Shown: one piece after another, positions 4,151 to 10,492 of the stretch
Numbering within the stretch: position 1 is the first letter of the stretch
How the letters are laid out: every line of letters begins with the position of its first letter
NCBI GenBank assembly: GCA_018830405.1
Contig: JAHJSF010000122.1
Location: 1 to 10,492 of the forward strand
Direction: 5' to 3'
DNA: 10,492 nt
From: Nitrospinota bacterium
GTDB lineage: Bacteria; Nitrospinota; Nitrospinia; UBA9942; JAHJSF01
Position numbers and translations under genes: made by a program
Notes under the pieces: model-generated
Database searches by the model: none
What the model saw: only the letters and a program-made list of their open reading frames with translations
Told to the model about the DNA's origin: nothing

Positions 4151-4342
4151 TGCTTAATTGCCTAAATCTTGCTGTAGTCGACCGGCCCTTGACTCGCCCG
4201 GCTTTGTCGTCAATCCTCGCTATACAACCCCCTATCCCCCTTTGTTAAGGGGGAATAAGGGGGTTGTGCTGCGGTTGTCTTCGCGCCGGTCGGGCCAAAT
4301 TCTTGGTCTTGATACTGACGCAGACTTAGGCAACTAAACACT
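4149..4342. repeat. 194-bp imperfect palindrome (MITE-like or attenuator-like element)
   Basis: Outer 21-nt arms at 4149-4169 and 4322-4342 match at 18 of 21 positions as inverted repeats (left arm starts AGTGCTTAATTGCC). The inner hairpin has 9-bp arms ACAACCCCC (4224-4232) and GGGGGTTGT (4259-4267), then further C-run/G-run pairing. Both pairs share the same centre (4245.5), so they belong to one structure. The sequence between them keeps only patches of symmetry (GCCCG and CGC in register). It fills nearly all of the nadB-ftsK gap and begins within the nadB stop codon. No target duplication is obvious. It could be a non-autonomous mobile repeat, a transcription terminator for nadB, or both. 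Confidence 0.7.
4224..4255. repeat. 32-bp repeat, copy 1 (inside the palindrome)
   Basis: Identical over 32 bp to 6631-6662. It begins ACAACCCCCTATCCCCC and ends AAGGGGGAA. Here it continues into a mirror half (TAAGGGGGTTGT), which copy 2 lacks, so this copy forms a longer hairpin spanning 4224-4267. Confidence 0.9.
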
Positions 4343-8179: not shown

Positions 8180-9832
8180 ATGAGAGATAATTTGAAAGAT
8201 ATAAAAGATATAAGTAACTATCTTGCCTCCACCCCGTCTGCCACTCATTGGAGCAGGATCGGAGTAAGGAGACGGGCCGGTATTCTCTTTCCCCTCTTTT
8301 CTCTCAACACCGAGGCCAATCTTGGCATAGGCGAGTTCGCCGATTTGAATCTCTTGGCAGAGTGGTGTTCCCTGACCGGGCATAGCATCATACAACTTCT
8401 CCCTCTGAATGACAGCGGTTCCAGTAATGTCCCTTATTCGGCCATATCCGCCTTTGCCCTCAACCCTATACATCTCTCCTGTTCCGCCATGGATGGGTAT
8501 GAGGAGAATGAGGGGCTAACTGTCCGTATTGAGCGTATTAAATTGGTCTGCAGGTCGACGAAACGGGTCGATTACGGTTATATTTTTAGGGAAAAAATGT
8601 CTCTGTATGAGGATATTTACCTTCTATTTAGGGAAAAGGAAAGAGGGAACTTATCGGACAGTTTTGACAAATATTGTCTGGATAACAGAGATTGGCTGGA
8701 CGATTATGGCCTGTATATGGCCCTCAGGGAGGAATATCGGGGGGAGAGGTGGGAGAAATGGCCCAGGGAATATAAGGAATATGAGAATAATAGCCTGGAA
8801 GTATTCAGGGAGGGGCATGGAGAGCGAATAAACTTTTACTCCTATCTACAGTGGCAGACGGAGAAACAGTTTCTGGCCGCCCATAACTATGCTGCCTCTA
8901 AAAATGTTTTGATATGTGGCGACCTCCCCTTTCTGGTGGCTAGGGATAGTGCTGATGTCTGGAGCAGGCAGTCTCTATTTCACCTTGATAGATCGGCCGG
9001 GGCCCCCCCTGATCAATTTTCCGAGTTGGGCCAGAAATGGGGATTCCCAACCATAAACAGGGAAATCGATTTCCAAAGCGGTCATGATTGGCATAAGAAA
9101 CGCCTTAAACAGGCGGAGAAATTCTATGATATCTATAGGATAGACCACGCCCTGGGTCTATACCGTATATACAGCGTGATGGTTGATGAACCTGATGCCC
9201 GTTACGGCTGGTTTGACCCTGCCGATGAATCGACTTGGGAGAAACAGGGGGAGTATATGATGAAAATGATGTTGGAGACCTCTCATATGCTTCCGGTTGC
9301 CGAAGACCTTGGAATGGTTCCCGATTGTGTCAGGCCGAACCTTAAATCTCTCGGTATTCCCCGAACCATTGTTGACAGGTGGGAGCGTAATTACAGAGGG
9401 GATTATAATTATGTTGCCCCCTCAGAAACTGAGGCCATAGCTGCCCACTACCTTAGCACCCATGATACGGAAACGGTTTGGGAGTGGTGGAAAAATAGTG
9501 AGTCGGATAGGCAGGATATGTATGAGGCGGTCTCGGGCGACGGTTTCCCGCCCCGGGTATTGGACGATGAGCTTCACGAAGCTATTTTAGAGCGTTGTTA
9601 CAGGTCAAACGCCCTCTGGGCCATAAACCTCCCCCAGGATATTTTTAGCGGTAAAATATTTTCCGAAAAACCCGAGCTTCACAGAATTAATATCCCCTCC
9701 CTGATATCAGACTCTAATTGGAGCTATCGTTTCCCTATTACTTTAGATGACCTCGTTTCCGATAAGGACGCCTATATAAAGGGAGAAAACAGGCGCATCA
9801 GGAAACTTATCGAAGATAGTGGGCGGATATAG
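8180..9832 (+). CDS. malQ: 4-alpha-glucanotransferase (amylomaltase, GH77)
   Basis: 550 aa, the normal size for the short, single-domain amylomaltases. The enzyme transfers alpha-1,4-glucan segments between maltodextrins in the cytoplasm, in maltose or glycogen metabolism. The GH77 barrel starts at RRAGILFPLFSLNTEANLGIGEFADL (31-56), then IIQLLPLND (70-78), PYSAISAFALNPI (85-97), GDLPFLVARDSADVW (247-261) and GAPPDQFSELGQKWG (274-288). The catalytic set is present: nucleophile Asp322 in YRIDHALG, acid/base Glu375 in PVAEDLG, and Asp429 in STHDTE. The ATG at 8180 has no clear ribosome-binding site. A TATAAT box at 8126-8131 could be a -10 element but lacks a recognisable -35. No other glycogen or maltose genes are nearby. 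A probable integron cassette begins 8 bp after the stop; the C-terminus itself looks complete. Confidence 0.94.
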   Translation: MRDNLKDIKDISNYLASTPSATHWSRIGVRRRAGILFPLFSLNTEANLGIGEFADLNLLAEWCSLTGHSIIQLLPLNDSGSSNVPYSAISAFALNPIHLSCSAMDGYEENEGLTVRIERIKLVCRSTKRVDYGYIFREKMSLYEDIYLLFREKERGNLSDSFDKYCLDNRDWLDDYGLYMALREEYRGERWEKWPREYKEYENNSLEVFREGHGERINFYSYLQWQTEKQFLAAHNYAASKNVLICGDLPFLVARDSADVWSRQSLFHLDRSAGAPPDQFSELGQKWGFPTINREIDFQSGHDWHKKRLKQAEKFYDIYRIDHALGLYRIYSVMVDEPDARYGWFDPADESTWEKQGEYMMKMMLETSHMLPVAEDLGMVPDCVRPNLKSLGIPRTIVDRWERNYRGDYNYVAPSETEAIAAHYLSTHDTETVWEWWKNSESDRQDMYEAVSGDGFPPRVLDDELHEAILERCYRSNALWAINLPQDIFSGKIFSEKPELHRINIPSLISDSNWSYRFPITLDDLVSDKDAYIKGENRRIRKLIEDSGRI

Positions 9833-9833
9833 G

Positions 9834-9891
9834 AGATAACGCTGAAGCTCAGGCGCCGCTACTTGCGGTTGCCTGAAGCGCGTTGTTAGGA
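9834..9891 (-). other. attC recombination site (59-base-element type)
   Basis: 58 bp, close to the minimum attC size. Minus-strand order: R'' TCCTAAC (9885-9891), spacer AACGCGCT (9877-9884), L'' TCAGGCAACCGC (9865-9876), loop AAGTA (9860-9864), L' GCGGCGCCTGA (9849-9859), spacer GCTTCAGC (9841-9848), R' GTTATCT (9834-9840). L''/L' pair as 6 bp plus 4 bp, with AA facing a single C, so L'' carries one extra base, as attC sites use to set strand choice. The two 8-nt spacers do not pair well, forming the usual unpaired central spacer. R' keeps GTT, but its outer bases match the malQ flank rather than the cassette, consistent with insertion at a chromosomal site. Confidence 0.75.
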
Positions 9892-9901
9892 GTCTTAATT
9901 T

Positions 9902-10075
9902 ATGAAAAATATAACAATCTCTTTTGGGCACAAAACAAAAACAATAACTGAAACAGAATTAAGAAAAGCACAAAGATTTAATATGCAAAATTTACCGAAA
10001 AAAGAAAGTAAAATTATTGATGCTGTGCTAAGTTATTTTTCTATTCACTACCTGACTGTTTCTGATAAGAATTAA
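9902..10075 (+). CDS. Hypothetical 57-aa protein in the cassette, antisense to cassette orientation
   Basis: ATG at 9902, TAA at 10073-10075. The product starts MKNITISFGHKTKTITETE and ends YFSIHYLTVSDKN. It is basic and mostly predicted helix, with no signal peptide or membrane segment. Not recognised. In favour of it being real: a good ribosome-binding site GGAG (9889-9892) 9 nt before the ATG, and a protein-like composition in very AT-rich DNA. Against: it is short, the Shine-Dalgarno is part of the attC R'' core and so would be there anyway, and it runs opposite to the cassette's sense direction. Its 3' end overlaps the 110-aa gene tail-to-tail by 35 bp. Confidence 0.45.
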   Translation: MKNITISFGHKTKTITETELRKAQRFNMQNLPKKESKIIDAVLSYFSIHYLTVSDKN

Positions 10076-10373
10076 TAATAAACTTACAGAAAGATTGCCA
10101 GTTGTTGAAATCATACCACCATTTGAAACCGTGTGATTCAACGCCGTCTTTTTTAAGTTTTGTAGATAATTCAGATAGCATTTTGAAAAGTGCGCTTTTG
10201 TCTGGGGAATCAGCATATTCATCTTGTTTATTGATTTTCCCTTGACTACCATTTACATATACTGGATGGCCACCATCAGCATTATGAAGGCCATGCCCAC
10301 TTTTTGTTTCAATTAATTTTTTTAATCCAAGATAGATTAATTCTGATTGATTGTATGATAATTTTTCAAACAT
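10041..10373 (-). CDS. Hypothetical 110-aa cassette protein
   Basis: The start is well supported: AGGAG (complement of 10380-10384) lies 6 nt before the ATG, the best ribosome-binding site in the window. The product is soluble-looking, with no signal or membrane segment. An N-terminal helical part (residues 1-22) is followed by a Gly/His/Asn-rich stretch (25-45), a charged helix (about 58-76), and an aromatic C-terminal patch with Trp85-Trp86, Tyr87, Phe89, Trp92, Phe95, and a single Cys96. I do not recognise a family, and small unknown proteins of this kind are typical of integron cassettes. It is in the sense orientation of the proposed cassette, and its stop lies about 150 bp before the attC R'' core. 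Function unknown. Confidence 0.75.
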   Translation of the reverse strand: MFEKLSYNQSELIYLGLKKLIETKSGHGLHNADGGHPVYVNGSQGKINKQDEYADSPDKSALFKMLSELSTKLKKDGVESHGFKWWYDFNNWQSFCKFIINSYQKQSGSE

Positions 10374-10398
10374 TTTATTCTCCTTTTTTTATATGAAA

Positions 10399-10428
10399 TT
10401 AATTTTTATTATATTAATTTTTATTATA
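10399..10428. repeat. Two tandem copies of a 15-bp AT-only unit
   Basis: Copies at 10399-10413 and 10414-10428 are identical (TTAATTTTTATTATA), with a partial third starting at 10429. Each contains the complement of TATAAT, so the duplication gives two possible -10 boxes for the minus-strand gene. Only the distal one has a 17-bp spaced -35 candidate. Confidence 0.85.
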
Positions 10429-10451
10429 TTAATTAATTTTTCTCCTAACAA
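10423..10451 (-). promoter_or_regulatory. Candidate promoter of the 110-aa cassette gene, straddling the insertion joint
   Basis: On the minus strand: -35 TTGTTA (10446-10451; 4 of 6 to TTGACA), 17-bp spacer, perfect -10 TATAAT (10423-10428). This predicts a start near 10415 and a leader of about 42 nt before the strong ribosome-binding site. The first half of the -35 box (TTG) comes from the flank and the second half (TTA) from the cassette end. Confidence 0.5.
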
Positions 10452-10492
10452 TTAATATGCGAACTAGTGTGTTTTCCAATCAACCCATCCAA

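Follow-up and report, generated by a model that had tools for sequence, protein, structure and literature searches.

Integrons are usually pictured as a single array of gene cassettes beside a single integrase gene, with only the first cassettes being expressed. Two settings away from such arrays are among those closest to the locus described here. CALINs are clusters of at least two attC sites that lack an integrase; seven such loci, of at least two attC sites each, occupy conserved chromosomal positions in Xanthomonas (PMC12444791), and the single-attC case is left to the user by IntegronFinder 2 (PMC9024848). Insertion of cassettes at attG sites in bacterial genomes is the subject of Loot et al. 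(2024), as that work is cited in two articles (PMC12901181, PMC12444791).

The DNA analyzed here is a stretch of 10,492 nucleotides from an uncultivated Nitrospinota bacterium of the order UBA9942 (hereafter the window). Near its end, it carries a gene cassette directly behind malQ, which probably represents an isolated insertion by an integrase acting in trans (probability about 0.72). Each of the seven genomes analyzed from the order has its cassettes scattered over the chromosome one or two at a time, not gathered in one array beside the integrase, and several of them lie behind what appears from the sequence to be a copy of an integrase-free docking site with a promoter.

The attC site and its cassette

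The features of the locus are the following.

8180-9832, plus strand: malQ, a 4-alpha-glucanotransferase gene of family GH77 (PF02446, E 7.8e-123), which belongs to the host and borders the cassette distally
9833-9892, minus strand: attC site, composed of R'' (9885-9892), L'' (9871-9879, with an extrahelical T), a 16-nt apex (9855-9870), L' (9847-9854) and R' (9833-9840)
9840-10448, minus strand: gene cassette of 609 bp that begins with the T at 10448 and ends with the G of R' (9840), with G/TT at both ends (the slash marks the crossover) and a contrast in GC content
9902-10075, plus strand: 57-aa open reading frame (ORF call), a possible second cargo gene
10041-10373, minus strand: 110-aa open reading frame (ORF call), the likely cargo gene, in cassette orientation
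10423-10451, minus strand: promoter-like site, a consensus match only (10 of 12 positions)
10442-10449, plus strand: cassette start, CTCCTAAC, which reads G/TTAGGAG on the minus strand
10449-10492, minus strand: the 44 bp between the cassette start and the contig end, an upstream flank that is attI-like or attG and not attC-like

Read from 9892 to 9833, the minus strand is CTCCTAAC-AACGC-GCTTCAGGC-AACCGCAAGTAGCGGC-GCCTGAGC-TTCAGC-GTTATCTC, in the order R''-spacer-L''-apex-L'-spacer-R'. An extra T follows the third pair of L'' (GCTTCAGGC), which gives three pairs, an extrahelical base and five further pairs. On alignment, the geometry of the site (spacers of 5 and 6 nt, position of the bulge) is that of the aadA1, cmlA and GES attC sites. 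A preliminary description of this DNA had recognized the order of the boxes on the minus strand and the additional base in L''. Both are real, the latter in the minus-strand reading only, and the length of the site is 60 bp rather than the 58 bp first given. A hairpin on the plus strand was rejected as an alternative, because the extra base would fall in L' and R'' (AGATAAC) would be left unmatched.

A covariance model (R1), trained on 12 attC sites from class 1 and other plasmid cassettes and from arrays in genomes of the same class, with none from the window, scored the site at 30.3 bits (E 1.4e-6 in a search of the window). It was also the top match of R1 in the whole 1.42-Mb genome, with an E-value of 1.9e-4 that is rough owing to a shortened calibration of the model. 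The minus strand folded as DNA better than 200 of 200 shuffles (z -3.7), and the plus strand folded more weakly. Two of the checks named in the preliminary description, a covariance model and a fold of the bottom strand, came out in favor of the site. A simple palindrome scanner failed to resolve it, and the covariance model was used instead. Nothing in the window matched Rfam at gathering thresholds, and R1 gave no other convincing match on the contig, which stops at 10492.

The exact complement of R'' (CTCCTAAC on the plus strand) occurs once in the window, at 10442-10449, against an expectation of 0.006 for 600 nt of the same composition, and the cassette is therefore delimited as 9840-10448. 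It has a TTNNNNN start that is complementary to its own R'' as a perfect 8-mer. The body of the cassette, from attC to start, has a GC content of 26.8%, compared to 46.8% upstream. The boundaries, the AT-rich DNA between them and a gene in the matching orientation had all been anticipated in the preliminary description and were recovered here, the gene being the 110-aa ORF on the minus strand.

This ORF is preceded by AAGGAG. It matched no family in Pfam, NCBIfam, PHROGs or PADLOC, searches of plasmids, phages, viral contigs and genome contigs revealed no homolog of it, and its single-sequence structure model was poor (pLDDT 58). The AGGAG of the 57-aa ORF lies inside R''; no significant family match and no relative were found for this ORF in the family libraries and the fetched attC loci of the order. 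Since the cargo has no known relatives, it provides no independent trace of its mobility. The -35 element of the promoter-like site (TTGTTA) straddles the insertion junction and its -10 element (TATAAT) lies inside the cassette, such sites being no more frequent than expected by chance.

This genome has many short palindromes (CCCCCTT repeats, for example), and a chance hairpin or terminator accompanied by a coincidental 8-mer might imitate a cassette with no integron involvement. This reading is hardly credible: the E-value of the model, the bulge in L'', the spacer lengths, the cassette start and the base composition all agree, no terminator-like site was detected, and 59 of 77 genomes of the class lack any match to a second covariance model (see below). 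That the window holds a genuine attC cassette is close to certain.

The target site and the origin of the recombinase

The crossover lies 7-8 bp beyond the malQ stop, in agreement with the G/TT target that had been proposed there. An integrase of the IntI type would recombine the folded bottom strand of attC with a double-stranded G/TT target, which in this case would have been situated between malQ and its neighbor beyond the contig end. The tail of R', TTATCTC, would now be part of this target, and the inserted cassette would begin with its own TTAGGAG. A cassette-free malQ locus would be expected to join 9839 directly to 10449 as ATAGGAGATAA-CAATTAATATGC; in the genomes searched for such an empty site, none of the relatives had a closely similar malQ. 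An attC cassette with correct orientation and boundaries and a G/TT crossover supports the suggestion of the preliminary description that an integrase has been active in this lineage.

It had further been stated that no integrase was in view. This holds for the malQ contig, which carries no intI up to its end at 10492 and hence no complete integron with intI, attI and attC together, but not for the genome, where contig C76 encodes a full-length integron integrase (418.9 bits against a cut-off of 265). Residues 18-329 of this protein (312 residues) align with the solved structure of IntI4 (2a3v; E 2.6e-86). As no integrase is seen beside the cassette, the enzyme probably acted in trans, and we infer that the C76 integrase inserted the malQ cassette singly. 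Among the seven genomes of the order, only G000 and G001 have an integrase above the cut-off and G002 has a broken copy, a count that supports only a limited claim of absence elsewhere because the completeness of the genomes is 73-87%. The N-terminus of a relic integrase was observed on contig C83 of G000, the genome of the malQ cassette (L010, 10158-10490). Just upstream of it lies an attI-like tail, ACCTGATAATCAATGG/TT, the last bases of which are identical to the flank of a cassette on contig C220 of G002.

Only 44 bp separate the cassette start from the contig end, and the cassette is therefore not proven to be alone. It might be the distal member of an ordinary integron or of a multi-cassette CALIN, with the integrase, attI or other cassettes hidden past 10492. 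Consistent with this alternative, a contig end is no more than 1 kb away from 18 of the 62 attC sites of the order, a pattern that would arise if broken arrays account for some of the sites, and the intI of C76 is likewise close to a contig end. Several observations make it unlikely. Scored as the right half of an attC site, the upstream junction reached -1.8, compared to 15.5 for the attC of the window and a median of 13.3 for true sites (2 of 44 were equally low), and the next element is therefore probably no further cassette. The 22 bases at 10469-10490 have no second copy in the genome when up to 3 mismatches are allowed, and no contig of the order bears more than two attC sites of at least 20 bits. 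An attI with an intI may nonetheless lie directly past 10492. An isolated insertion in trans is the preferred reading.

Dispersed cassettes across the order

A second covariance model, whose training set included three attC sites from the genome of the cassette, was run over 77 genomes of the class and gave matches in every one of the seven genomes from the order, 3 to 13 in each. On the fetched contigs of these seven genomes, 62 attC sites of at least 20 bits were located on 48 contigs, with one site on 34 contigs, two on 14 and three on none. The view that cassettes outside integrons are uncommon, expressed in the preliminary description, does not apply to this order, where dispersed loci of one or two cassettes are the norm. 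The malQ locus is one of several such sites, which are found both in its own genome and in the six others from the order.

In the genome of the malQ cassette, further attC sites are found on contigs C120 and C150. The former has a perfect cassette start; on the latter contig, a second, decayed attC was seen by eye (17326-17396 of L067). Throughout the order, a perfect 8-mer complementary to R'' was present upstream of 14 of 56 attC sites, compared to 1.8% in a control with swapped R''. An alignment of 66 sites, fitted to the model and therefore leaning towards the structure, showed pairing of the L stem in 94% of its cells and numerous compensatory changes. The outer R positions were mostly unpaired, because the tail of R' belongs to the neighboring sequence.

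Orthologous loci of the order carry different cassettes in different species. One precise empty site was found: the cassette on contig C155 of G006 is missing from contig C18 of G005, a sister species, where the flanks join exactly at G/TT (filled, GACAATG/TTATGTG...GTAGCG/TTATCTT; empty, GACAATG/TTATCTT). On contig C220 of G003, the whole corresponding island is absent.

Other sequence features were observed at these loci. The same cassette body (82% identity over 353 bp) occurs on contig C21 of G002 (L117, 4281-4633) and contig C76 of G006 (L126, 3623-3975), in two genera, and adjoins different downstream sequences. At loci of G001 and G003-G006 (e.g. L122, L125 and L102), the same palindromic repeat, GTTCTCCCTTCGCTTCGCTCAGGGAGAA..., directly follows many attC R' boxes, as if it were a REP-like element or a hairpin nested at the crossover. 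Palindromic repeats of the CCCCCTTATTCCCCCTTAACAAAGGGGG type are scattered in the genome of the cassette (4222-4269 of the window; L012 and L068) and are unrelated to attC.

attI-like platforms

A sequence of 64 bp that resembles an attI site recurs in the order, and many of its copies directly precede the start of a cassette. This platform contains a predicted promoter, TTGACT-17-TATAAT, and was detected in about 19 dispersed copies ending at or close to G/TT. Six of the order's seven genomes have such copies; G000 has a diverged partial match, and 70 other genomes have none. Conservation of its columns averages 0.92 as far as the crossover and drops to 0.45 past the TT. At nine of 20 platform loci, the flanking sequence that was fetched contains an attC of more than 25 bits, and at two more it contains weak matches (the loci include L129, L134, L128, L099, L106, L142, L184 and L188-L208). 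The C-terminal fragment of an integrase lies near some copies, which suggests that some platforms are integrons after the loss of intI.

Other types of attI recur as well. The attI on contig C52 of G001 is found again on contig C136 of G002, with 94% identity over 180 bp. What lies upstream of the C76 integrase reappears ahead of the cassette on C150, with none of 500 shuffles scoring as well. With the search terms chosen, no literature on dispersed integrase-free attI sites was found.

We infer that the target at malQ was either an attG or a solo attI-like platform, an attI with promoter that has lost its integrase. Given an isolated insertion, the platform is a possible target, which we nevertheless tend to doubt. 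In its favor, many loci of the order have an attI-like sequence that ends at G/TT ahead of a cassette, and the sequence shared by C76 and C150 is such a case in the genome of the malQ cassette. The 44-bp flank, in contrast, matches no type of platform significantly: 34 to 46 of 500 shuffles scored equally well against the C76/C150 type and 12 of 500 against contig C40 of G005 (one of nine comparisons), and the 64-bp platform gave no significant match over the 44 bp. The flank sequence used in these comparisons carried one extra base at its end.

More generally, the order may run a distributed integron, in which integrase-free platforms of attI plus promoter are scattered over the chromosome, many of them with one or two exchangeable cassettes, and are served in trans by one or a few integrases. 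The malQ cassette would then occupy one such docking place. We regard this model as tentative and rather doubtful as a whole. If true, numerous small docking sites, often with a consensus promoter of their own, would allow most cassettes to be promoter-proximal and to be spread among chromosomal genes.

Comparison with known systems

In this order, the insertion of cassettes at a distance from the integrase can be compared in natural examples, a site that is filled in one species being empty in its sister species. The malQ element shares with the cassettes of class 1 and chromosomal integrons the AAC of R'' and GTT of R', spacers of 5 and 6 nt, L boxes of which L'' has an extrahelical base, G/TT boundaries and a single likely cargo ORF oriented like the cassette. 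It differs from them by the lack of a visible adjoining intI or attI, by an orphan cargo and by a possible second ORF on the opposite strand.

Like a CALIN, the malQ attC has no integrase nearby, but its contig shows a single attC up to its end, fewer than the two that define a CALIN, and the pattern recurs in seven genomes, on 48 contigs that each bear no more than two sites. As in attG insertion, the cassette apparently sits at a G/TT with no attI or neighboring attC visible, whereas several sites in the relatives are a recurrent attI-like sequence and not scattered unrelated targets. With the CALINs of Xanthomonas, the loci have in common integrase-free cassettes, conserved chromosomal positions and ancestral activity; what sets this order apart is the predominance of single cassettes, their variable content and the copied attI-like platforms.
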